Assembly (NCBI RefSeq): GCF_002837275.1
Contig: NZ_NXIF01000037.1
Span: 1-34,631 of the forward strand
Reading direction: 5' to 3'
Origin: Malaciobacter halophilus
Lineage (GTDB): Bacteria > Campylobacterota > Campylobacteria > Campylobacterales > Arcobacteraceae
DNA length: 34,631 nucleotides
Below the pieces are notes generated by a model. That model saw only the letters and a program-made list of their open reading frames with translations. It was not told the DNA's origin and did no database searches. Below are positions 6,883 through 29,329 of the stretch, one piece after another. Numbering within the stretch: position 1 is the first letter of the stretch; every line of letters starts with the position of its first letter. Both the position numbers and the translations under genes were made by a program.

Positions 6883-6918
6883 AAAAAAAAAGGCCCTTTA
6901 CTTTTGTAAAGGACCTTT
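6883..6918 (-). terminator. Intrinsic terminator for the lyase/reductase operon
   Basis: Bases 6889-6900 pair with 6907-6918 (12-bp arms, 6-nt loop). Read on the minus strand, the one imperfect pair is a G-U wobble and the stem is followed by a run of eight T (complement of A 6883-6890), a textbook Rho-independent terminator. On the plus strand the same position is a C-A mismatch and there is no T-tract, so it is weaker for mfd. It lies about 80 bases past the lyase stop codon. Confidence 0.88.
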
Positions 6919-6995: not shown

Positions 6996-8636
6996 TTATT
7001 TGTACTCTTTTAAGAATTTAGCTGCATTTCTAAAGTCATCAGTTAAAGGTCTGTCATACTCTAAGAAATCTACAACTTTTCTAAACTCTTTATACATTTT
7101 TTCTGTTGCTGGCGATAGTTTTAAATTAGGATTTTTTTGTAATCTTAAATCAATCGCTTGAGAAGCAATTAATAACTCCATACCATAAATATGATATAAG
7201 TTGTCAATTTGTTTTCTAACTCTTTTTAATACTTCAGGAGCATTAGTTGCAATATCTTCAATATCTCCTGCTACTGGTAAGTAGTTAAGTGAAATAGGGT
7301 TAGCTAAAGCTTGGTTCTTAGCTGCTAAAGATACAAATGGTTTTTGCATTGCACCAAATGCATGTACAGTGTTTTTTGTACCTAAGAATCTTGATAATTT
7401 TGTAAATTTAGGTTTTAATAGTTTATTTGATCTTTGTGCTGATGCTAAAGAGTTATGTGCTAGTACAATAGCATTTGCTTCAAATTCAACTACCCATGGC
7501 ATTGGTTCAAAGTTTGCAGTTGGAACAACAGCTCCTTTATACTCATCACCATTTACATAAACTTTTTTCTCTTGGTATCTATTTGATTCAGATTTAACAC
7601 CAATTGCAACACCTGGATTATCATCAGATGAGTTCCATTGGATTTTCATTAGGTTATCTAATTTATTAATTGAAGTATCTAAAGTACCTAAGATATAAGC
7701 TCCATCTCTATAACTTAATGGATCTTGTAATGCTCTAGTAGAGTCTTTTTCCCAAAGGTAACTACCTTCTAAGATTTTAGTAATTTTTTTAGCTGCACCT
7801 ACATAACCTGGGAAAGGTCTTAATTTTTGAGTTTCTGTATGCATTGGAGCAATATTTCCATTTAATGCTTCTAAACTTAAAGCATAAACATATTTAGAAA
7901 CTTTAGTTAATTGTTTCATCTCTTCAAGTGCTAATCCAGCTAAAGCTCCTGAATAAGCATTTGAACTAATAATTGATAATGCATCTTTACCAAATAAAGA
8001 GATCTTTTTAACACCAGCTTTAGCAAATGCCTCTTTTGTAGGCATTTTTTTACCTTTATAGTAAACATGGCCTTCACCTATCATAGCAAGACCAATGTGT
8101 CCTAAGATTGTAATATCAGCTTCTCCCATCGAACCTTGCGATGGCATAGCTGGGATAATGTCTTTGTTTAAAAACGTTTTGTACATATTCACAACTTTTG
8201 TTTGTACACCTGTTCCACCAACTAAAATGTTGTTTAATCTAGTAACTAAGATTGCTCTTGCTTCTTTAACAGGAATATCTTCTCCAACACCACCACAGTG
8301 CGCATGAATTAATCCTTTATTAAACTTTGTTGATGCGTTGATAACTGCTTGGCTTAATTCACCTTCAGCATTTACCATTTTTTTATCTTTATTTAGACCA
8401 ACACCTACTGTTAGTCCATAGATTTTATGTCCATTCTCCGCTGCTTCAATTAATACATTATGAGAAGTTTGTACTCTTTTCATCGCCTCACTAGTAATCT
8501 TGATATCTTCACCTTTAGCAACTTCTAAAATTTTGTCACTTGTCATGTGTTTCCCATCAAGAACAACTGGTGCTGCAAATGCATTTATCATACCAAACGC
8601 AATTAAACTTGTTTTTATTAACATTGATTTAGACAT
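6996..8636 (-). CDS. Exported MIO-less HAL-family lyase, ergothionase-like
   Basis: The 546-aa protein belongs to the histidine/phenylalanine ammonia-lyase superfamily. A Sec signal peptide precedes AFA|AP (cleavage after about Ala21), so it should be periplasmic. Family landmarks are kept: the active-site Tyr loop (Tyr73 in IYGLTVGVG), QDPLSYR (Arg310), NSSDDNP (335-341) and the GDIEDIA segment (Glu460). The Ala-Ser-Gly triad that cyclises into the MIO electrophile is absent: where ammonia-lyases have GSVGASGD, this protein has GSMGEAD (168-174), one residue shorter, with the frame intact. Loss of MIO is the known hallmark of ergothionase, which eliminates trimethylamine from ergothioneine to give thiourocanate. 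Substrate is therefore inferred to be a histidine-type betaine, not histidine; no hutU-like gene is near. It is last in the reductase operon, 49 bp after the NapC-like gene. HAL-family membership is nearly certain; substrate is moderate. Confidence 0.8.
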   Translation of the reverse strand: MSKSMLIKTSLIAFGMINAFAAPVVLDGKHMTSDKILEVAKGEDIKITSEAMKRVQTSHNVLIEAAENGHKIYGLTVGVGLNKDKKMVNAEGELSQAVINASTKFNKGLIHAHCGGVGEDIPVKEARAILVTRLNNILVGGTGVQTKVVNMYKTFLNKDIIPAMPSQGSMGEADITILGHIGLAMIGEGHVYYKGKKMPTKEAFAKAGVKKISLFGKDALSIISSNAYSGALAGLALEEMKQLTKVSKYVYALSLEALNGNIAPMHTETQKLRPFPGYVGAAKKITKILEGSYLWEKDSTRALQDPLSYRDGAYILGTLDTSINKLDNLMKIQWNSSDDNPGVAIGVKSESNRYQEKKVYVNGDEYKGAVVPTANFEPMPWVVEFEANAIVLAHNSLASAQRSNKLLKPKFTKLSRFLGTKNTVHAFGAMQKPFVSLAAKNQALANPISLNYLPVAGDIEDIATNAPEVLKRVRKQIDNLYHIYGMELLIASQAIDLRLQKNPNLKLSPATEKMYKEFRKVVDFLEYDRPLTDDFRNAAKFLKEYK

Positions 8637-8677
8637 TATATATCCTTTTGTTTTTGTTAGATTTTTTCTAATCTATT

Positions 8678-8683
8678 ATTATA
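8678..8683 (-). promoter_or_regulatory. Candidate internal -10 box before the lyase gene
   Basis: TATAAT on the minus strand, in the 49-bp gap between the NapC-like gene and the lyase. Predicted start near 8671 gives a leader of about 35 nt containing AAAAGGA. It could give the lyase expression independent of the upstream genes. AT-rich background makes chance matches likely. Confidence 0.35.
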
Positions 8684-8685
8684 AT

Positions 8686-9279
8686 CTATTTTATATCATC
8701 TTCCCATTCACCAACAGGTTCGTGAGTTCTATCATATAAAATTTTACTTAGCTTTTTATGTCCCACATTTTTGTGGCAACTAGCACATCTTAAAGGGTCT
8801 TTGTCAGCATCTTTATATTTTGTATACAGATTGTGCATTCTACTAGCTGCTGCACTTTGACTCTCTGTTTCTTCGATATTACTGTGACAACTCATACAAC
8901 CACTGTCAAAAACATATGATTCTCTTTTTTCTCTATGAGCTTGCCAATCCATCTCTTTTGGATCATTTACTATTACTGATGTTACTTCTACTATTCCATT
9001 AACTCCTTTTTTAAATAGGTAATTTGCCAAACTATCGTGTGGTAGATGGCAAGATACACATTTAGTTTTAATTCCATGAGGATTATTTCCACCATGTGTA
9101 TCATGAGAATATGATTCAACCATTGGATCCATCCAGCTATGACAAGATACACAGAACTTATCATCACTTGTAGCTTTAATAGCAGCATGTCCTCCAAAAG
9201 TGAATATTAGACCAAGTACAATACTGGCACCTGCTACTGTTAATAAAACTTTTTTGCTTTTTAAGAAATCAAAATTCAT
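8686..9279 (-). CDS. NapC/NrfH-type tetraheme cytochrome c, quinol dehydrogenase
   Basis: The 197-aa protein has a short cytoplasmic N-terminus, one membrane anchor (about residues 9-29) and four CxxCH haem sites (43-47, 74-78, 128-132, 165-169). The first haem motif is followed by SWMDPM, fitting the Met ligand found near haem 1 in NrfH/NapC proteins. This family oxidises menaquinol at the membrane and passes electrons to periplasmic reductases. I start it at ATG 9279 because AAGGAG lies 8 nt upstream; a GTG nine bases earlier overlaps the ribosome site. It follows the small cytochrome gene by 12 bp, so its likely partner is that cytochrome and, through it, the Tat flavoprotein. The set resembles the Wolinella FccABC arrangement. 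Confidence 0.92.
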   Translation of the reverse strand: MNFDFLKSKKVLLTVAGASIVLGLIFTFGGHAAIKATSDDKFCVSCHSWMDPMVESYSHDTHGGNNPHGIKTKCVSCHLPHDSLANYLFKKGVNGIVEVTSVIVNDPKEMDWQAHREKRESYVFDSGCMSCHSNIEETESQSAAASRMHNLYTKYKDADKDPLRCASCHKNVGHKKLSKILYDRTHEPVGEWEDDIK

Positions 9280-9291
9280 TTCACACACTCC

Positions 9292-9717
9292 TTATGGCAC
9301 TAATAATTTTTTCATAGAATCTTGAGAGTGGCACATTACACAATAGTTTTGTGACTCTTTATGTGATGAGTGACATAAGTTACAATCCATATTTGGATAG
9401 TGTGGTGATGCATGAATATTATCATCATAACCTAAGTACTCAGTTCTCTCTGCCAATGTTTTATAATCTTTATGGCATTCTAAACAATCTTTTGTTGTTA
9501 ACTCTGTGTATGACTCTTTTGGCCCATCGCCATGACAGTCTGCACAGTCAAATCTTAATTTTCCATGGTGAGCTTTAATTGGATAATTCTTTTTAGAATA
9601 CTCACCATTGTCAATTTGTGTTTTTACTGCAATATTAGAATCAGTGCTGTTTGCAGAAACAATAACACCTAAAAAAGCGAATACTGCAATAGTTGCAATT
9701 ACTAAAATTTTTTTCAT
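9292..9717 (-). CDS. Periplasmic tetraheme cytochrome c (electron carrier to the flavoprotein)
   Basis: The 141-aa protein has a signal peptide (about 1-23, ending VSANS) and four haem motifs: CADCH (58-62), CLECH (78-82), CNLCH (112-116) and CVMCH (126-130). Extra His residues (HH at 50-51; His102, His106, His119) could serve as distal ligands. Size and spacing fit the small cytochrome c3-like haem domain that is fused to the flavin domain in Shewanella fumarate and urocanate reductases. Here it is a separate subunit, while the neighbouring flavoprotein has no haem domain. It lies between the flavoprotein (9-bp gap) and the NapC-like gene (12-bp gap), so it most likely bridges the two. Specific partners are inferred from gene order. 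Confidence 0.9.
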   Translation of the reverse strand: MKKILVIATIAVFAFLGVIVSANSTDSNIAVKTQIDNGEYSKKNYPIKAHHGKLRFDCADCHGDGPKESYTELTTKDCLECHKDYKTLAERTEYLGYDDNIHASPHYPNMDCNLCHSSHKESQNYCVMCHSQDSMKKLLVP

Positions 9718-9726
9718 TATCTTCTC

Positions 9727-11289
9727 CTAAACTCTTTGTTTCAATAACTTAACAGCACTTTTTGCAGCGATTCGTCCAAATACTAGACAATCAGGAACTG
9801 CACAACTTCCTAGTCTACTTGCACCGTGTGGTCCACCAACTGCTTCTCCAGCAGCAAATAAACCTTCAATTGCTTTGTCATCTTTTCCATATACTCTAGC
9901 TTCAGTATCAATAACAACTCCACCCATTGTGTGGTGAACTTTTGGAATTGCTCTAAATGCATAATATGGAGGCTTAGAAATATTTGGAGTTTTACCTCTT
10001 AATTTAAAGAAAGGTTTATTCATCTCCTCATCTTTTCCATTTTCAACATATTTATTATAATCATCAACAGTTTTCTTTAATCCATCATATGGAATTTTAT
10101 AAAAGTCTGCTAACTCTTTTAGTGTGTCAAATTTTCTAATAACTTTTTTATGAATACCTCTGTAAACATTCTCTTTTCTTGTACCAGTTGCTCCAACGCT
10201 ATCACAGAAAACAACAGGGTGAGTTAATGAACCATCTGGATTTTCATGGATTTTTAAAATAGCGTCAGCTCTAATTTTTCTATCTGCTAACTCATTTACA
10301 AATCTTTTACCAGTTCGTGCATCAACCATAACTCCGTAAGCAAACGCAGGGATAGCAAACACAGGAGAAATACCAAATCCTTTTTCATCAGGTGACCCCC
10401 AAGGTCCAAGTTGTACCCAACCTAAGTCTCTTGTTTTTATATTGTTTTTCATCATCATTCTAAGGGCATAACCAGTTGCACCATAATGATTAGTACAGTC
10501 TAAATCAGGAGTAAGTTTAGGATCAACTTTTTGTCTAAAGTTTACATCATATGCAAACCCACCAGTAGCCATAATAACACCACCTTTAATTTTGTAGTAT
10601 TTTGTAGTACCAGTCTTATTATCTTCTTCATTAGACATTGGATCATAACTAAATTTATAGTTTTCTCTTACTTTGATACCAATAACTTTTTTACCACTTT
10701 TATCAAAGATTAAATCATCTAAGATAACTCTAGTTCTAATAGTTCCACCATTCTTTTTTGCATAAGCTTGTAAAGGTAGTGTAATCTTTCCACCTGAGTT
10801 AATTGCTGGCCAAATAGTTCTTGGAACTGAGTGTCCACCAAAGTGTCCTAAGTTATTTCTATAAAATACACCTCTTTCAGTAGTGAACTTATAAGCTTCA
10901 AAACCGTTTTTAGCGATAACTTCAACAAGCTCTCTTTGGTTTAATCCAAGTCCAGCCTTAAAGATATCTTTTACATATAATTCATAAGAGTCTTCAATTC
11001 CTCTCTCTTTTTGTTGAGGTGACCCAACAATTGAAAAAGCTCCACCATTAATTGCTGAATTTCCTCCAAGAACTGGCATCTTATCAATCATTAATGTTTT
11101 TGCACCTAAATCTATCGCTTGGCATAAAGCAGCTGAACCAGCAAAACCAGAACCGGCAACAACTACGTCCCATTCTTCATCCCACTGAATGTCTTCTTCA
11201 TTAGCGAATAAATTTGTTTTCATTCCCATCATCGCAGCACCACCAACTATAGTACCACTTTTGACAAAATCTCTTCTACTAATTTTCAA
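9727..11289 (-). CDS. Tat-exported FAD reductase of the fumarate/urocanate reductase family
   Basis: FAD-binding protein of the flavocytochrome c fumarate reductase family, 520 aa from the TTG at 11289. That start has AAAGGAG 6 nt upstream and gives a Tat signal directly (KISRRDFVKSG); an in-frame TTG at 11316 lies upstream of this ribosome site. Seen: FAD motif AGSGFAG (about 45-51), GGNSAINGG, an RFVNE..DR segment whose Arg337 matches the catalytic acid, HHTMGG (452-457) and HGASRLG (Arg492), which in fumarate reductase bind substrate carboxylates. The HPT motif that contacts fumarate's second carboxylate is replaced by GPW (295-297), arguing against fumarate as substrate. There is no haem or FMN-binding domain. 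First gene of the operon; probably reduces an enoate made by the downstream lyase. Substrate inferred. Confidence 0.88.
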   Translation of the reverse strand: MKISRRDFVKSGTIVGGAAMMGMKTNLFANEEDIQWDEEWDVVVAGSGFAGSAALCQAIDLGAKTLMIDKMPVLGGNSAINGGAFSIVGSPQQKERGIEDSYELYVKDIFKAGLGLNQRELVEVIAKNGFEAYKFTTERGVFYRNNLGHFGGHSVPRTIWPAINSGGKITLPLQAYAKKNGGTIRTRVILDDLIFDKSGKKVIGIKVRENYKFSYDPMSNEEDNKTGTTKYYKIKGGVIMATGGFAYDVNFRQKVDPKLTPDLDCTNHYGATGYALRMMMKNNIKTRDLGWVQLGPWGSPDEKGFGISPVFAIPAFAYGVMVDARTGKRFVNELADRKIRADAILKIHENPDGSLTHPVVFCDSVGATGTRKENVYRGIHKKVIRKFDTLKELADFYKIPYDGLKKTVDDYNKYVENGKDEEMNKPFFKLRGKTPNISKPPYYAFRAIPKVHHTMGGVVIDTEARVYGKDDKAIEGLFAAGEAVGGPHGASRLGSCAVPDCLVFGRIAAKSAVKLLKQRV

Positions 11290-11321
11290 AATGAACTCCT
11301 TTGTAAGTTTTGTCAAGTGTA

Positions 11322-11327
11322 ATTATA
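11322..11327 (-). promoter_or_regulatory. Candidate -10 box of the reductase/lyase operon
   Basis: A perfect TATAAT on the minus strand. The predicted start is near 11315, which overlaps the upstream in-frame TTG at 11316 and so supports the TTG at 11289 as the true translation start, with a leader of about 26 nt. It shares the 135-bp divergent region with the kinase gene, a likely place for regulator binding. Confidence 0.6.
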
Positions 11328-11388
11328 ATAGATGGTATAGGTCTAAAAAGTAACTAAAATATTCAGGTTAATATAAAAACAAAAGATA

Positions 11389-11394
11389 TATAAT
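11389..11394 (+). promoter_or_regulatory. Candidate -10 box for the dCache kinase gene
   Basis: TATAAT within GATATATAATT, followed by a T-run. Predicted start is near 11401, leaving a short A-rich leader before ATG 11425. It faces away from the reductase operon promoter about 60 bp to the left. Confidence 0.45.
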
Positions 11395-11424
11395 TTTTTT
11401 AATTTAAAATATAAAGAATATATA

Positions 11425-13446
11425 ATGAAAAAACCTTTTTTTAAAAATATAAAACTTTTTTTAGTATTTAGTCTGATTTTTTTTGGACTCATATTAAGTA
11501 ATTACATGGTGAATTTAGAGATTTTGCAAGGTATGATTAGAGATCAACAAACAAATACTATTAAAAGTGCTTCTAAAAGAATAAGTAAGTGGTTAGACCA
11601 AAAAATTGATAGTATGAATGTAATTAAAACATTTATAAAAGGCCTTGACCACGAAGAACATCCTGAATATATAGAGAATTTACTTTTACAAAGTAAAGAA
11701 GTTGCAAACTTTGCAAATGTTTATGTAGGATATGAAGATGATGTTATTTTATCAGGACTAAAATGGAATAGACCAACAAATTATGACACAATTAGAAGAC
11801 CTTGGTATATAAAAACTACAAATAGAAATAGAACTACAATTACAGATCCATATTATGATGTGGGATTTAAAAAAGTTGTTGTTGCAATTTGTACTCCTTT
11901 TTTAGAAAAAAAGAAAAGACAAGGAGTAGTATGTGGAATTTTGCCATTAAATCATATTAGAAATGAGATTTTAGATATATCTTTACCTTATGATGGAATT
12001 GCTTATTTAATAGATGGATATGGAAAGATATTACTTCATCCAAGAGAACATATGCAATTAAAAAACTCTCCTTATGGTTTGTTAGCTAAAAGAAAGAGTA
12101 CTACTGTAAATAACGAGTTAGATGATTATATCTTTTCCCATGACCATATTGACCAATCAAATTGGTTTATTATTGCACAACTTGACAAAAGTAGCGTTTA
12201 TAAAAAAGTAAACTTACAACTAATAATTAATCTTACTATTTATGGATTAAGCCTTGTTTTATTTATAGTCTTAAATATTTTATATACAAAAAAACAGAAT
12301 TTAAGTGATGAAAAATTAAAAAAAACAGAAACTTTACTAAATCACTTTATTGAATACGGGGATAGAGGAGTTTTAATAGCAGATTCAAAAAGTAAAATTC
12401 TATTTTTCAACTCAATTTTTACAAAATTTTTAGAACTAAGTAAGAGTGATATAGAAGATACTTATTTAGAAGCTTCAAATAATATATTTAAAACTTTTAA
12501 TTTTAATGTATATACAAAAATTTATAAAAAAATCGCCCATGCTAAACACTTTAAAGAGAGTCAAGAGTGCAGTTTTGAACATAGATGTGAAGAAGGAGAG
12601 ATTTGTTATTTTCAAATTACGGTTTTACCAGTATTTAGTAGTGATAAAGTTTATCAAGGATTAATGATATTTTTACAAGATGTAACAGCAAAAGAGAAAG
12701 AGAAAATATATAAAAAAGAGCAAGAAGATATACTCTTTCAGCAAGCAAAAATGGCAGACTTAGGAGAGATGATTGCTGCAGTTTCTCATCAATGGAGACA
12801 ACCTTTAAATTCACTTTCAATTATGGTTGGTAATTTATTACAGTTTAAGCAGATGAACCAATTAACAGATGATATGTTTGAAGAGAATCTTAATCACTGT
12901 ATTACAAATATTCACTATTTAGCTGATACAATTGAAACTTTTAGAAACTTTTATAAACCAAGTAAAAAATGGCAAGAGTTTGAAGTTGATAAAGCAATTG
13001 ATGAAGTTTTTTATATAATTTCACCACATTTTAAAACACTTGGAATAAAATTAGATATTATTAAAGATATGAAAGATAATATGACTTGCTTGAATTATAA
13101 AAATGAGTTTCAACAAATAGTTGCAAATCTTATACATAATGCTAAAGATGCAATTATTGAAGATAAAAAGTACTCTAAAGTAATTGAAGTTGATATAGAG
13201 TTATTAGATAATAAATTCTATATAAAGTTTAGAGATTATGGTTGTGGAATAAATAAAAAAATAGAGAAAAAACTATTTCAATCTTTTGCTACAACAAAAG
13301 ATGAAAAAGGTACAGGAAAAGGTTTATATCTTTCAAAATTAATTGCAAAAAACAAGTTAAGAGGTGATTTATTAGTTACAAACTACAAAGAACCTACGGA
13401 GTTTTTAATAATTTTACCAACACAAAAGGGAAATGAAAATGCTTGA
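11425..13446 (+). CDS. dCache-PAS sensor histidine kinase
   Basis: The 673-aa membrane kinase has a first membrane helix (about 9-28), a periplasmic double-Cache domain (about 30-260), a second helix (about 263-287), a PAS domain (about 300-415), a HisKA box with phosphoacceptor His455 (VSHQWRQPLNS), and a complete HATPase domain (NLIHNAKDAI, DYGCGI, GTGKGLYLS). The Cache domain has RPWY (125-128) and DPYYD (141-145). These resemble the carboxylate-binding part of amino-acid dCache sensors, but the Asp after RxWY and the later Asp expected for amino-group binding are not apparent. The gene overlaps the next regulator by 8 bp and is divergent from the lyase/reductase operon, so it probably senses a periplasmic substrate of that pathway. 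The ligand is inferred. Confidence 0.9.
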   Translation: MKKPFFKNIKLFLVFSLIFFGLILSNYMVNLEILQGMIRDQQTNTIKSASKRISKWLDQKIDSMNVIKTFIKGLDHEEHPEYIENLLLQSKEVANFANVYVGYEDDVILSGLKWNRPTNYDTIRRPWYIKTTNRNRTTITDPYYDVGFKKVVVAICTPFLEKKKRQGVVCGILPLNHIRNEILDISLPYDGIAYLIDGYGKILLHPREHMQLKNSPYGLLAKRKSTTVNNELDDYIFSHDHIDQSNWFIIAQLDKSSVYKKVNLQLIINLTIYGLSLVLFIVLNILYTKKQNLSDEKLKKTETLLNHFIEYGDRGVLIADSKSKILFFNSIFTKFLELSKSDIEDTYLEASNNIFKTFNFNVYTKIYKKIAHAKHFKESQECSFEHRCEEGEICYFQITVLPVFSSDKVYQGLMIFLQDVTAKEKEKIYKKEQEDILFQQAKMADLGEMIAAVSHQWRQPLNSLSIMVGNLLQFKQMNQLTDDMFEENLNHCITNIHYLADTIETFRNFYKPSKKWQEFEVDKAIDEVFYIISPHFKTLGIKLDIIKDMKDNMTCLNYKNEFQQIVANLIHNAKDAIIEDKKYSKVIEVDIELLDNKFYIKFRDYGCGINKKIEKKLFQSFATTKDEKGTGKGLYLSKLIAKNKLRGDLLVTNYKEPTEFLIILPTQKGNENA

Positions 13447-14134
13447 TACAAAAGTATTAAAAAAATTAGCAAATATTCATGTTTTAATTGTTGAAGATGA
13501 TGAAATGACAGCTCATGTTATACATCAATCTTTAAATTTTCATTGTAAAAAAGTTGATGTGGCAAATAATGGAATGGAAGGCTTTGAAATGTATGAAAAA
13601 AATAGGCCTGATGTTGTAATTGCAGATATAAATATGCCTGAGATGAGTGGCCTTGATATGGTAAAGGCTTTGCATGAAGTTTGTCCACATCTACCTGTGA
13701 TTATTATGACTTCATATGATAGTTCAGAAAATATGTTAGAAAGTATTAATCAAGGTGTATATAGTTATTTAAGAAAACCTATTAGAATTGAAGAGCTTCA
13801 AACAGCTTTATTAATGGCAACAAAAAATATTTATAATTCAAATATTAAATTAGAAGATGAGTTTCATTATGATTGCAATTCAAAAACTTTATATAATGGT
13901 TATAAACAAATAAAACTTACAAAAACTGAAAAAGAGTTGGTACATTTACTTATGTCAAATATAAATAAAGTAGTTGATTTTACAACTATTGAGAGTTATG
14001 TTTGGCAAGAAAAAAGTATGAGTATAGAAGCTTTAAGAATGTGTGTAAAGAAAATAAGAGCAAAGAGTTATTTAAAATTAATACAAAGTGTTCCAGGATG
14101 TGGATATATAATTAATTCAGAAAGTAATGATTAA
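13439..14134 (+). CDS. OmpR-type response regulator, partner of the dCache kinase
   Basis: The 231-aa protein has a receiver domain with acidic pocket EDD (near 19-21), phosphoacceptor Asp63 (IADINMPEMSG) and Lys113 (LRKP), then a winged-helix DNA-binding domain (about 140-230) with the helix EKSMSIEALRMCVKKIRAKSY. I prefer ATG 13439 (MLDTKVLKKLANI) to ATG 13433: the AAGGG ribosome site is 8 nt upstream, and the paralogue at 14932 begins MLSLKILKKLSNI. It overlaps the kinase gene by 8 bp. Likely target promoter: the divergent region 11290-11424 controlling the reductase/lyase operon. The end of the gene lies inside a perfect palindrome shared with the rhodanese gene. Confidence 0.9.
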   Translation: MLDTKVLKKLANIHVLIVEDDEMTAHVIHQSLNFHCKKVDVANNGMEGFEMYEKNRPDVVIADINMPEMSGLDMVKALHEVCPHLPVIIMTSYDSSENMLESINQGVYSYLRKPIRIEELQTALLMATKNIYNSNIKLEDEFHYDCNSKTLYNGYKQIKLTKTEKELVHLLMSNINKVVDFTTIESYVWQEKSMSIEALRMCVKKIRAKSYLKLIQSVPGCGYIINSESND

Positions 14135-14144
14135 TCATTACTTT
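14121..14144. terminator. Perfect 24-bp palindrome containing two stop codons
   Basis: Twelve-base arms with no mismatch, centred at 14132/14133, where the TAA of the regulator (14132-14134) overlaps the TAA of the rhodanese gene on the other strand (14131-14133). Because of the symmetry both proteins end in Ser-Asn-Asp. On the plus strand a few T follow. Likely a bidirectional terminator for overlapping convergent genes. Confidence 0.65.
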
Positions 14145-14814
14145 TTGGTTTATATATAGTAAAAGACATAGAGTTCCAACTATGTATTCCTCCTCTATAC
14201 CATAAAATCTTATTTTCTGGATAACCAATTTTTATTAAATTATCAATAGCTTTAAAAGATTGTTTACACCAAGCACCATTACAAAATACTATTATTTTCT
14301 TTGCATTAGTAAAATCATAAGAGTTTTTTGTTTTTTTTACATTTAATTTTTTCATACTATTTTTAAATAAATCCATAAAAAGTTCATCTTTTTCCAATTC
14401 ATCAAATGGAATATTTATTGCAGTTGGAATAGTTCCTAATTTGAACCATGACTCTCTTCTTACATCAACTAATGCATATTTTTTTGGGTTTTTTAATAAT
14501 TTATTTTTTATAAAATCTAAAACTTCAAGCTCTGCAATAGTTTTTATATTATCATTGTATTTTATGGGTAAAACAACTCCTTTTGTAGTAATAAAGCTCT
14601 TTTTACACTCTTTAGGAACTTTTTTACTTGCAAAATCTTTACTCCAAAAAAGTTCTGGAACCATTCCAAACTCTACACATTTACTTGGAACTTCTCGTTC
14701 AATAACAACTATTTTATTATCAATTTTAGTTTTTACTCCACTTAATTGAAGCATTTGTAAATTTGAACTAAATAAACTTAGATTAAATATAACTATTAGT
14801 GCAAAAAATTTCAT
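14131..14814 (-). CDS. Exported rhodanese-like sulfurtransferase
   Basis: The 227-aa protein has an N-terminal hydrophobic signal (about 1-17) and so is probably periplasmic. The C-terminal half (about 95-220) is a rhodanese domain: VDVRRESWFKLGTIPTAINIP matches the CH2A region, and the active-site loop is CNGAWC (Cys178 being the expected persulfide-carrying Cys, with Cys183 next to it). The N-terminal part (about 25-90) has two further Cys (46, 70) and no recognised domain. Rhodaneses move sulfane sulfur from donors such as thiosulfate or persulfide to acceptors. The gene overlaps tail-to-tail with the upstream regulator and is divergent from a second regulator. With the FCSD-like flavoprotein nearby this hints at periplasmic sulfur handling; the real substrate is unknown. 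Confidence 0.85.
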   Translation of the reverse strand: MKFFALIVIFNLSLFSSNLQMLQLSGVKTKIDNKIVVIEREVPSKCVEFGMVPELFWSKDFASKKVPKECKKSFITTKGVVLPIKYNDNIKTIAELEVLDFIKNKLLKNPKKYALVDVRRESWFKLGTIPTAINIPFDELEKDELFMDLFKNSMKKLNVKKTKNSYDFTNAKKIIVFCNGAWCKQSFKAIDNLIKIGYPENKILWYRGGIHSWNSMSFTIYKPKSND

Positions 14815-15621: not shown

Positions 15622-15636
15622 ATTCTATTTTAAAAT
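15615..15636. terminator. Short hairpins at a convergent junction
   Basis: AGAAT pairs with ATTCT (15615-15626) across the regulator stop (15619-15621) and the flavoprotein stop (15625-15627), followed by a 10-bp AT palindrome (15627-15636). Weak compared with the other two stop-spanning palindromes in the window. Confidence 0.3.
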
Positions 15637-16923
15637 ATCTTGGGTTAAACCAAAATACCAAGCTCTAGCACTTTGTGCTGTTTGTTTGTTTATATCTGAA
15701 ACTTCTGCTTTAACTTTTAATTTATCTTTTTTATAACTATATTCATGAGTTATTGAAACAGCTTTTGTTTTTGTAATCATTGAATAACAAACATTTCCTG
15801 GTAAGTTAGTCTTATAATTAAACTTTTTATTATCTATTCTTGATATTAAATCTTCTGCTAAAATATAAGCACATGAGTTTGCCATTTGGGCTGATTTTGG
15901 GAAAGGATATTGTCCTTGTGCATCTCCTATTACATAAATAGTATCTGAACTAATTGATTGATAAGTAGGCTCTTTTAGTTTAGCAAAGCCATGAAGTGTT
16001 TCTAATTTTGCAATTTCAATTAGTTCATTTGCTTTATTTGGTGGGATAATATTTGCTTGTTCAAATTGTAGTTTTTTTATTTTATAATCAAGAATAGATT
16101 TATCAAATATCTCAAAAGTTATTTGCTTTTGTTCAAAATCAATATCTTTAAAGTTTGAGTGGGGTAAATATTCAATATAATTTTTATAATATTTATTAAA
16201 AGCTTTTAAAAACTTATGGGGTTTTGCCGCAGGTTTTTCTCTAGGGTCTAAAACAATAACTTTTCCTTTTATATTATTTGTTTTAAAATAAGTAGCTATC
16301 ATGCAAGCTCTTTCATAAGGAGCGGGAGGACATTTATAAGAGCCATTTGGAATAGAAATTATAAAATTCCCACCCTTGAAAGTTTGAACCATATTTTTTA
16401 AAGTAATATGCTCTTTACCTGCTTTTAGACCTGCTGGTGCTTTTAGTTTACACTCTTCTATTTTATTTATATCTTTAATGATTTTTTTATAATCGTAATC
16501 AATTCCAGCAGCAATTATTAAATAATCATAGCTAATTTGTTGATTTGAAGTAAAAATTATTTTTTTATCTTTGTTTATATCAATAACTTTTGCATTTATA
16601 AAATTGTATTTATATTTATTTATACTATTATTGTAACTAAAATTTAAATCTTCAAATTTTATATTTGCTACATTTGCTAACCATTGATTGGTAAAAGGGC
16701 ATGAAGAAAAACTTGAGTTTTGTTCTATTACAGTTACATCTAAATTAGGTTTTAGTTCTTTTAATCTTTTTACACAACTAAGTCCAGCAAATCCTGCACC
16801 ACAAATTGCAACAGTAGTTTTGATATTTTTATTAGTTCTTACTTGTATAGATGAGTATAAATTAGTTGAACCTAATACAGCAGCACTAATCATAGAATAT
16901 TTTATAAAATCTCTTCTAATCAT
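15625..16923 (-). CDS. FCSD/SoxF-like Tat-exported flavoprotein
   Basis: The 432-aa protein starts with a Tat signal (MIRRDFIKYS) and a hydrophobic stretch, then a pyridine nucleotide-disulfide-type FAD domain (GAGFAG, 42-47; GD motif at VIGDAQGQ about 333) and a C-terminal FCSD-type flavin-binding segment (about 365-430). Flavocytochrome c sulfide dehydrogenases oxidise sulfide in the periplasm. One conserved Cys of this family is present in YKCPPAPYERA (Cys198). The second redox Cys, expected in a GWCPV-like motif, appears as GFAKL (Ala314), so the usual disulfide is probably not formed; Cys75 and Cys351 are other candidates. No partner cytochrome gene is adjacent. The ATG is preceded by GGAGA. 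Sulfide or polysulfide oxidation is plausible but not certain. Confidence 0.8.
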   Translation of the reverse strand: MIRRDFIKYSMISAAVLGSTNLYSSIQVRTNKNIKTTVAICGAGFAGLSCVKRLKELKPNLDVTVIEQNSSFSSCPFTNQWLANVANIKFEDLNFSYNNSINKYKYNFINAKVIDINKDKKIIFTSNQQISYDYLIIAAGIDYDYKKIIKDINKIEECKLKAPAGLKAGKEHITLKNMVQTFKGGNFIISIPNGSYKCPPAPYERACMIATYFKTNNIKGKVIVLDPREKPAAKPHKFLKAFNKYYKNYIEYLPHSNFKDIDFEQKQITFEIFDKSILDYKIKKLQFEQANIIPPNKANELIEIAKLETLHGFAKLKEPTYQSISSDTIYVIGDAQGQYPFPKSAQMANSCAYILAEDLISRIDNKKFNYKTNLPGNVCYSMITKTKAVSITHEYSYKKDKLKVKAEVSDINKQTAQSARAWYFGLTQDILK

Positions 16924-27308: not shown

Positions 27309-27331
27309 TAACTTAAGTTACTAACTAAGTA
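27298..27331. terminator. Perfect 34-bp palindrome across two convergent stop codons
   Basis: Seventeen-base arms with no mismatch, centred at 27314/27315. It holds the TAG of the kinase (27306-27308) and the TAG of the BCCT gene on the other strand (27321-27323); both proteins end in Leu-Ser because of the symmetry. There is no T-tract on either side. Likely a bidirectional terminator or mRNA-end stabiliser. Confidence 0.65.
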
Positions 27332-29300
27332 GATGAATAAAGTGCATATGTTTTTGATAGTGGTCAACTATATCATTTCTAATACCATCTTTTGACCATC
27401 CCATAATATCATAATCTTGTCCACCTTCAATTAAGTGAATAACAGCACAATAATATAACTCCTCTTCACTTCTTTCTGACTCATCTTTTTCATCTTGTGC
27501 AAAACTAGGTTTTACTCTTGCTACGGTTTTAATTTCATAAATAAAATTTTTATTCTCTCCAAAGTTTCCTTCTTCTCCAAGTGTAACAATTAAAGATACT
27601 TTTCCTTTCTCTTCATTCTCAACTACTTCAACATCTAATTCATGTTTTTTAAGCTCTTGTGCCACATCAATAAGTGCTGGCTTAGCAACTTTTTGAATAA
27701 ATCTTTTAACATTATTTTTAGAAGGGTAGTTTATAATATTACTTAATCTAGCATCCCAGTTGTTACTTGAAGTTGTTGCTGTAAAAGGAGCTGGATTGTA
27801 TTGTAAACTCTCTTTTTTTGCTATATCAACTCTTAAAGCTTTTATTAAACCATAAGATGCAACTAATAGTACGATAGAAAAAGGTAAAGCACTGGCAATT
27901 GTCATTGTTTGAAGTGCAGCTAAACCTCCAGCTAAAATAAGAATTGAAGCAATTATTCCTTCTCCAACAGCCCAATAAACTCTTTGCCAAATTGGAGTAT
28001 TGTTATTACCATTTGAACATAACATATCAATAACCATTGAACCTGAGTCAGATGAAGTAACAAAGAAAACAATTACCATAATCGTAGCAACAAATGAAGT
28101 TATACCACTTAAACTAAAGTGTTCCAAGAAAGCAAATAATGCAATTGTAACATCATTTGATACTGTTTCTCCAAGAGCTATAAATCCTTCGTTAAGAATA
28201 AGATTAATAGCTGAGTTACCAAAGAATGTCATCCACATAAGTGTAAAACCTGTTGGAACTAATAAAACCCCAAGAGTAAACTCTCTGATTGTTCTACCTC
28301 TACTAATTCTTGCAATAAAAAGACCTACAAATGGTGACCATGAAATCCACCAAGCCCAATAAAGAATTGTCCAACCACCAAGCCAATCAGTTTTTTCATA
28401 AGCAAATAGATTAAAAGTACTATTTAATAAATTTGAAGCGTAAGCTCCAATATTTTGTACATATGCTTGAAGTAAGAAAATAGTTGGACCAACAACTAAG
28501 ATAAAACCAAGAAGTGCAAAAGCTAAAATAATATTTAATTCAGATAATTTCTTAATTCCTTTATCTAAACCTGTTGTAACAGAAATAGTTGCAAGTACAG
28601 TAACTCCTATAATTAAAAACACTTGTGAAGTTGTACTTACAGGAACACCCCATAAATAGTTTAGACCTGTATTTACTTGTAAAACTCCATATCCTAAAGA
28701 AGTAGCAACACCAAAAAGTGTACCAATAACTGCAAAAATATCAACAGCATGTCCAATTGGACCATATATTTTATCTCCAATAATAGGATATAAAGCAGAC
28801 CTTAATGTTAAAGGCAAATTATGTCTATAACTAAAAAATGCCAAAATAATTGCAACAATTGCATAAATTGCCCAAGCATGTAAACCCCAGTGAAAAAATG
28901 TGATTTTTAAAGCTTCTCTTGCAGCTTCAACTGTACTTCCTTCACCTACTGGTGGCTTTAAAAAGTGCATTACAGGTTCTGCAACACCAAAGAACATTAA
29001 CCCAATACCCATACCAGCTGAGAAAAGCATAGCAAACCAAGATATATAAGAGTAGTCTGCTGTTGAGTGGTCAGGACCTAGTTTTATATCTCCATATTTA
29101 GAAAATGCAAGATAAAAAACAGTAATTAAAATAATAGCAACTGTTAAAACATAAAACCAACTACCATTTTCTACAATTACTGATTGCATGCTTTTAAAAA
29201 ATCCATCTGCAACTTTTGGAAAAACTGAAGCAAAAAATGCTAAAGCTGCAATAAGTCCAGAAGAAATAAAAAAAACATGTTTATTTAACTTTGACTTCAT
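27321..29300 (-). CDS. BCCT-family betaine/choline/carnitine transporter
   Basis: The 659-aa protein has about twelve membrane helices in its first 510 residues and a long cytoplasmic C-terminal tail. BCCT signatures are clear: GMGIGLMFFGVAEPV in the TM3/TM4 region and the tryptophan-rich WTILYWAWWISWSPFVG, which forms the quaternary-ammonium cage. Members import trimethylammonium compounds with Na+ or H+, often as osmoprotectants. The long charged tail (about 515-659) resembles the regulatory C-terminus of BetT-type transporters. I use ATG 29300, which has AAGGA 5 nt upstream, not the preceding TTG. It is monocistronic. A role in uptake of betaine from seawater is the default reading; a link to the betaine-type substrate of the lyase operon is only speculation. 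Confidence 0.95.
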   Translation of the reverse strand: MKSKLNKHVFFISSGLIAALAFFASVFPKVADGFFKSMQSVIVENGSWFYVLTVAIILITVFYLAFSKYGDIKLGPDHSTADYSYISWFAMLFSAGMGIGLMFFGVAEPVMHFLKPPVGEGSTVEAAREALKITFFHWGLHAWAIYAIVAIILAFFSYRHNLPLTLRSALYPIIGDKIYGPIGHAVDIFAVIGTLFGVATSLGYGVLQVNTGLNYLWGVPVSTTSQVFLIIGVTVLATISVTTGLDKGIKKLSELNIILAFALLGFILVVGPTIFLLQAYVQNIGAYASNLLNSTFNLFAYEKTDWLGGWTILYWAWWISWSPFVGLFIARISRGRTIREFTLGVLLVPTGFTLMWMTFFGNSAINLILNEGFIALGETVSNDVTIALFAFLEHFSLSGITSFVATIMVIVFFVTSSDSGSMVIDMLCSNGNNNTPIWQRVYWAVGEGIIASILILAGGLAALQTMTIASALPFSIVLLVASYGLIKALRVDIAKKESLQYNPAPFTATTSSNNWDARLSNIINYPSKNNVKRFIQKVAKPALIDVAQELKKHELDVEVVENEEKGKVSLIVTLGEEGNFGENKNFIYEIKTVARVKPSFAQDEKDESERSEEELYYCAVIHLIEGGQDYDIMGWSKDGIRNDIVDHYQKHMHFIHLLS

Positions 29301-29329
29301 CAAAATCCTTTAATAAATAATTGCATTAA

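Follow-up and report, generated by a model that had tools for sequence, protein, structure and literature searches.

A 34,631-nucleotide stretch of Malaciobacter halophilus DNA (contig NZ_NXIF01000037.1, analysed at full length and called the window below) carries an operon that links an exported lyase to an exported reductase. All four open reading frames are on the minus strand, with short spacers between the genes. They encode a flavoprotein, a periplasmic tetraheme cytochrome, a NapC/NrfH-type cytochrome and an exported lyase of the histidine ammonia-lyase (HAL) fold that lacks the methylidene-imidazolone (MIO) group, and this confirms the four-gene operon described in an earlier note on this DNA. 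The features are as follows.

9727..11289, minus strand: Tat-exported FAD enoate reductase (TIGR01813; GPWGSPDEKGFG motif), 520 amino acids, TTG start
9292..9717, minus strand: periplasmic tetraheme cytochrome c (four CxxCH, Cytochrom_c3_2)
8686..9279, minus strand: membrane-anchored NapC/NrfH-type tetraheme cytochrome, judging by its family a probable menaquinol oxidase
6996..8636, minus strand: Sec-exported MIO-less HAL-fold lyase, probable ergothioneine (imidazole betaine) trimethylamine-lyase
8115..8123, minus strand: Glu172-Ala173-Asp174 of the lyase, with Glu-Ala at the MIO-forming Ala-Ser-Gly site of HAL
6889..6918, minus strand: terminator-like hairpin and T run 3' of the lyase gene
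11425..13446, plus strand: divergent dCache/PAS histidine kinase, linked in 13 of the 15 relatives read
13433..14134, plus strand: response regulator adjoining the kinase, linked in 13 of the 15 relatives read

The flavoprotein starts at a TTG (11289) with AGGAG upstream and carries the Tat motif SRRDFVKSG, and the signal peptide of the lyase ends AFA-AP. For the NapC/NrfH-type gene the list of open reading frames begins at a GTG (9288), but the ATG at 9279 is preferred for its ribosome site. Pfam recognises all four proteins through FAD_binding_2 (216 bits), Cytochrom_c3_2 (62 bits), Cytochrom_NNT (PF03264, 104 bits) and Lyase_aromatic (PF00221, 404 bits against a cut-off of 27). The translations contain four CxxCH motifs in the tetraheme cytochrome and four in the NapC/NrfH-type protein, which belongs to that family by its PF03264 score and its four hemes and falls below the NrfH equivalog cut-off (70 versus 134 bits). 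The NrfH-type gene of two relatives (L045 and L046) has three CxxCH with the start used. The strong terminator of the earlier note stands in part. A hairpin of 13 pairs with a T run does follow the lyase gene (6918-6889), and it is this position that justifies the label, not the scan, which alone is weak (three terminator-like sites observed in the region versus 2.3 expected by shuffling).

The best relative of the lyase in the Protein Data Bank (PDB) is the ergothionase of Treponema denticola (313 bits, E 3e-92), and the second is a probable HAL (175 bits, E 2e-50). A true histidine ammonia-lyase (HutH) was considered and rejected, given a score of 272 bits against the NCBIfam hutH cut-off of 539 and the absence of the MIO triad. 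The aligned site reads GSMGEA-DIT in the window and GSVGASGDL in HAL, with Ala-Ser-Gly replaced by Glu-Ala and one residue deleted. The T. denticola enzyme (PDB 6s7j/6s7q) has the same HAL fold and Glu-X-Asp at the triad site. It also shares a Leu at the position of HAL Tyr280, a Ser at that of HAL Asn195 (HAL numbering), a Cys after a conserved His, the Gln-Lys pair, and the retained Arg and Glu. Among 106 aligned lyase rows this Cys (Cys114) is present in all 19 Campylobacterota operon lyases and in the T. denticola ergothionase. It recurs in five further rows (three Clostridium, Thermohalobacter and Lentisphaerota) and in none of the 77 remaining non-HAL rows, one of which is unreadable there. 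Glu172 and Lys432, the latter presumably in the active site, are common to the window lyase, the ergothionase and many relatives, and Lys432 is found in 35 of 35 readable lyases from loci with S-Me-THD genes (36 rows, one a fragment).

A tree built by a quick method from 71 of 104 lyase rows, with long outgroup branches, points the same way. The 33 rows that shared 88% or more identity with a retained one were left out, as were two L118 lyase fragments shorter than 400 amino acids. The four rows that served as HAL outgroup split off with support 100, one of them (L088_17737) without a readable triad. By both sequence and tree, then, the window lyase is closer to the T. denticola ergothionase than to HAL, as the phylogeny proposed in the earlier note was meant to decide, and it groups with the MIO-less ergothionase-type lyases.

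The partner flavoprotein belongs to the flavocytochrome c subfamily TIGR01813 (426 bits versus a cut-off of 285), and its catalytic Arg/His/Arg, the equivalents of UrdA Arg411, His520 and Arg560, are retained. With UrdA of Shewanella oneidensis (PDB 6t85) it shares 37% identity and the FAD and clamp domains. The differences lie in the residues that PMC7921117 connects with the specificity of UrdA and fumarate reductase. The window protein has Gly at the position of UrdA Tyr373, which is His in fumarate reductase, and the alignment places no Asp, Asn or Gln at position 388; Glu177 is also replaced, by Ala. A Pfam scan of the flavoprotein gave no FMN_bind match, and its electron input is heme-based. 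Membership in UrdA was rejected on the Tyr373, position 388 and FMN_bind findings, and membership in the Fcc3 fumarate reductases on the loss of the His and on the cytochrome being a separate gene instead of a fused domain. The earlier description of a Tat FAD reductase of the fumarate/urocanate reductase family thus holds for the flavocytochrome c family, but both sets of specificity residues are missing.

FccABC-type sets are a second comparison. Like these and the flavocytochrome c3 fumarate reductases, the operon combines a flavoprotein, a tetraheme cytochrome c and a NapC/NrfH-type membrane cytochrome. It differs in the separate heme protein, in the Gly that replaces the fumarate-specific His, and in the lyase partner. 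In a flavoprotein tree (without L053 and L054, which fell under the length limit, and without L035, L038 and L041) the window protein and the 13 other Campylobacterota lyase-linked rows entered form one clade with support 100. This clade also holds five Sutterellaceae/Enterobacterales rows and 13 Campylobacterota paralogs without a lyase, and UrdA, Fcc3 and two UrdA-type lyase-linked rows fall outside it. The motif GPWxxxDExGFG is present in most of its rows and absent from three paralogs.

Evidence that lyase and flavoprotein work together comes from their distribution in 397 Campylobacteria genomes. A lyase match was obtained in 48 genomes: 16 at 58-100% identity, two at 35-39% and the rest at 24-29%, and the three of this lowest tier that were aligned in the correct frame (G261, G391 and G105) retain the MIO triad. 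At E 1e-40 the flavoprotein matched in 62 genomes, 16 of them at 67-100% identity and the next at 49%. The top tiers are the same 16 genomes, with neither gene at this level in the other 381. The chance of identical 16-genome sets is 7e-29 under independence, which genomes do not have. Three of five sampled genomes of the window's own genus are missing both genes, so the two were gained or lost together. Linkage is retained in all 16 genomes despite differing gene order, and a chance neighbourhood was rejected on these grounds. The co-occurrence that the earlier note had asked for is thereby established, and the operon is real, conserved and, to judge from this distribution, functionally coupled.

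All 15 relatives whose neighbourhoods were read have lyase, flavoprotein and both cytochromes in one cluster, and 13 of them have the kinase and regulator there as well. The earlier note had overlooked this divergent dCache kinase and its regulator (11425-14134), as well as a porin gene in many relatives. The window's family has the order flavoprotein-cytochrome-NrfH-lyase. In a second family (f3) it is lyase-flavoprotein-cytochrome-NrfH, followed by kinase and regulator in 12 of 14, and the Campylobacter gastrosuis row lies among the f3 rows of the lyase tree. A gap of about 1.2 kb separates lyase and flavoprotein in nine of the 14 f3 relatives; in all seven read out it is filled by a porin-like gene, and the one scanned belongs to the OprD family (27 bits versus a cut-off of 25). 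In a wider genome scan, of which the best 80 of 182 relatives were kept, the nearest named record is a Halarcobacter metagenome-assembled genome (MAG). Its lyase is 79% identical to that of the window, and it too carries the operon, together with a porin gene. The flavoprotein of L053 is interrupted by an assembly gap of 100 N.

That the lyase is exported together with the flavoprotein is borne out, but export is not a special trait of this operon. By a simple rule (a hydrophobic stretch plus a cleavage-like site) a signal peptide was called in the window lyase and in 17 of 18 Campylobacterota relatives, no start with a signal peptide having been found for L045. It was also called in 34 of 35 S-pathway-linked lyases, in five of five and two of two other reductase-linked lyases, and in 22 of 35 others (Clostridium and Thermohalobacter rows lack one), versus none of four HAL-type enzymes.

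One clue to the fate of the product is that urocanase is above cut-off in none of the 16 operon genomes and in five of the 397 overall. The genomes with the 35-39% lyases (G166 and G107) do have urocanase, and there an exported lyase adjoins a urocanase-like gene, an S-Me-THD protein and a major facilitator superfamily (MFS) transporter, a catabolic set that occupies L047:2106-10422 and L048:7555-13127 in these two Campylobacteria genomes. The same set adjoins lyases in Burkholderia, Serratia, Pseudomonas, Pseudochrobactrum and others. In the Burkholderia, Serratia and Pseudomonas clusters, where an amidohydrolase and an M20 gene usually join it, the exported MIO-less lyase is of the same family and about 49-57% identical to that of the window. 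It has Glu-Lys for Gln-Lys and lacks Cys114, and the product would be imported and hydrated with no periplasmic reduction. Beliaeva is said to have set out a five-step ergothioneine catabolism in 2021 (cited in PMC9732360). The catabolic gene set appears to fit these five steps, and S-Me-THD genes are what would be expected for the sulfur-bearing thiourocanate. Thus one version of the lyase family is catabolic, whereas in Campylobacterota a reductase takes the place of the catabolic genes.

What might the operon do? An external imidazole betaine, most likely ergothioneine, would cross the outer membrane; that it is external is suggested by the EgtD family being below cut-off in the organism's own genome (20 versus 23 bits). 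In the periplasm the MIO-less lyase would split it into trimethylamine and thiourocanate, and the Tat flavoprotein would reduce the double bond of thiourocanate to yield the propionate, which would undergo no further catabolism. Menaquinol would supply the electrons, which would reach FAD by way of first the NapC/NrfH-type and then the tetraheme cytochrome. Ergothioneine is favoured over hercynine as the lyase substrate because the window lyase retains the ergothionase letters. The dCache two-component system beside the operon would probably sense substrate or product. The motif RPWY is conserved in its dCache domain, both in the window kinase and in those of 13 of 13 relatives. Such domains bind amino acids and amines, so the ligand of the kinase may be the betaine or what is made from it. 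The sequences show the genes, their families and export signals, the shared distribution, the ergothionase-type active-site letters and the lack of a urocanase; the substrate, the path of the electrons, the gain of energy and the regulation are inferred. On the sequence evidence, a self-supplied anaerobic respiration, in which a periplasmic ergothioneine trimethylamine-lyase feeds a dedicated, menaquinol-driven thiourocanate reductase, seems a fairly likely account, if well short of a secure one.

Pairs of this kind extend beyond Campylobacterota. The genome scan for lyase relatives yielded 79 loci (best 80 of 182 relatives), and among these reductase neighbours were present in three Campylobacterota, Turicimonas, Parasutterella, Sutterella, Hafnia, Escherichia sp. 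and a Brevinema MAG. Pairing with a reductase is thus not peculiar to Campylobacterota. On the lyase tree the reductase-linked label requires three changes and falls on two groups that stand apart, one of Campylobacterota and Brevinema, the other of Sutterellaceae and Enterobacterales. Electron input varies: Hafnia combines a tetraheme cytochrome with a heptaheme cytochrome b561 protein, and Brevinema and the second Sutterella pair have FMN_bind domains. Perhaps lyase-coupled betaine respiration is general and recurrent, with MIO-less lyases making an acceptor from external ergothioneine or hercynine and pairing with each lineage's own reductase and electron-input module; belief and doubt are evenly balanced on this. 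Sutterella seckii has two lyases, each adjoining its own reductase (L114:782-4557 and 7740-11668), a natural specificity experiment. The lyase with Gln-Lys adjoins a reductase of the window subgroup (GPW-type), and the lyase with Glu-Asp adjoins one retaining all eleven UrdA residues compared. This matching of active-site letters to reductase types suggests a different acid for each pair, and a non-urocanate one for the window pair.

Several observations weigh against periplasmic thiourocanate respiration or blunt the case for it. The window lyase is only 38% identical to the T. denticola ergothionase, from which it also differs in its signal peptide and its linkage to a reductase and cytochromes, and the tree does not fix its position relative to the deepest MIO-less branches. 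Gln431 is common to window lyase and ergothionase but present in HALs too, so that only Cys114, Lys432 and Glu172 count as evidence. Lys432 in turn is found in two of four hutU-linked lyases (L071 and L115). It was rejected as a decisive thione marker and is suggestive at most; the residue argument for ergothioneine is accordingly not decisive. With Tyr373 and Asp388 missing from the flavoprotein, reduction of a urocanate-like acid is deduced from the partner gene and not from the pocket. A further 46 genomes encode flavoproteins of 37-49% identity but have no lyase ortholog. The flavoprotein frame of C. gastrosuis (L054:3943-5469) has one in-frame stop beside an intact lyase, and in Brevinema a Glu-Lys lyase stands beside a UrdA-type reductase, an exception to the matching seen in S. 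seckii. A relative of the lyase lies in an Escherichia coli hut operon, so the members of the MIO-less family are not necessarily all ergothionases.

This relative, which is also exported, bears on the main alternative, that hercynine is what is respired, the lyase releasing trimethylamine and urocanate and the flavoprotein reducing urocanate to imidazole propionate. Of 5426 complete E. coli genomes, 142 partially match the lyase gene of Escherichia sp.; the 20 matches listed cover 14-17% of a 3.7-kb query, with an identity of about 67%. In the two records opened, WB61 and FDAARGOS_497 (L140:6839-8509 and L141:6779-8449), the order is hutU-permease-hutD-hutI-hutG-lyase, and the 15 kb shown around the lyase in each contains no other annotated hutH. 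Urocanate is therefore the likely product there and hercynine a plausible substrate, which fits a urocanate-forming lyase. So do the two lyases that adjoin UrdA-type reductases. Moreover, Lys432 is kept by two of the four hutU-linked lyases (L071 and L115, whose HutU is of the ordinary type; the L088 locus also has HutU) and by the Brevinema lyase beside its UrdA-type reductase. However, Glu172 is replaced by Ala and Gln-Lys by His-Ile in the E. coli lyase, and Lys432 by Asp in the Sutterella lyase that adjoins the fully UrdA-like reductase, whereas the window lyase keeps both Glu172 and Lys432 and its flavoprotein lacks Tyr373 and Asp388. Respiration of hercynine is for these reasons rather unlikely in the window. 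The hut-linked E. coli lyase might, as a separate matter, bear on a 1962 report of E. coli ergothionase.

The same lyase-then-reductase logic could operate on a modified ergothioneine (a sulfonate or S-methyl form) or another aromatic betaine. A bacterial ergothioneine sulfonate pathway is in print, cited for Agrobacterium radiobacter, and lyases of Agrobacterium and other Rhizobiales fall in the sister clade of the window clade. Yet four Rhizobiales-type lyases (L088, L090, L091 and L094) have Gln172, and Glu-Ala for Gln431-Lys432, unlike the window, and such a substrate is quite improbable. Least probable of all is that the two enzymes act on unrelated substrates, with a flavoprotein that simply reduces fumarate or methacrylate and a lyase that scavenges nitrogen or detoxifies. 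Membership of the flavoprotein in the flavocytochrome c family and the paralogs in the 46 further Campylobacteria genomes would agree with this, but the shared distribution (16/16 versus 0/381 genomes, with linkage surviving rearrangement), the Gly in place of the fumarate-specific His, and the S. seckii lyases that each adjoin a reductase of their own all speak against it.

Ergothioneine respiration by a single bacterium would have a counterpart in the gut. Zhou reportedly described in 2025 an ergothioneine cross-feeding between gut bacteria, in which ergothionase-derived thiourocanate supports anaerobic energy metabolism. The acceptor would be the same; the difference is that there the steps are reportedly split between two species, whereas in the window both are in one operon and exported. 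No description of a lyase-reductase operon was found in the open-access titles and abstracts searched, among the matches listed, a scope that most subscription journals lie outside. In the accessible text of a paper on Campylobacter concisus energy metabolism (PMC7059363) the only ammonia-lyase passage found concerns aspartate ammonia-lyase. What the operon offers is a linked exported lyase and reductase in an Arcobacter-type bacterium and several Campylobacter relatives, which probably cleave an external histidine betaine of the ergothioneine type and respire one of the products instead of oxygen. If this is true, single bacteria, with Campylobacter, Sutterella, Parasutterella and Hafnia among them, can turn a dietary antioxidant into a periplasmic electron acceptor and release trimethylamine; genes could be named for ergothioneine loss in hosts, and a marker set would be available for metagenomes. 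The finding would also bear on the claim, in PMC13405746, that ergothionase is rare in the gut, because such a lyase, the hut-linked one, is annotated as a HAL/PAL/TAL ammonia-lyase in the E. coli records.

Some minor observations remain. The in-frame stop of C. gastrosuis reflects either gene decay or an error in the sequence. The additional Tat flavoproteins at 37-49% identity to that of the window (L131-L139) are not confined to the 46 genomes without the lyase ortholog, and some genomes that have it encode them too. In the window, a BCCT betaine/carnitine/choline transporter gene lies at 27321-29303, 16 kb off the operon and with no sign of linkage seen. A rhodanese gene (14131-14814) is accompanied by a gene whose product is distantly related to type III sulfide:quinone reductase (15625-16923; 95 bits, far short of the curated cut-off of 525).

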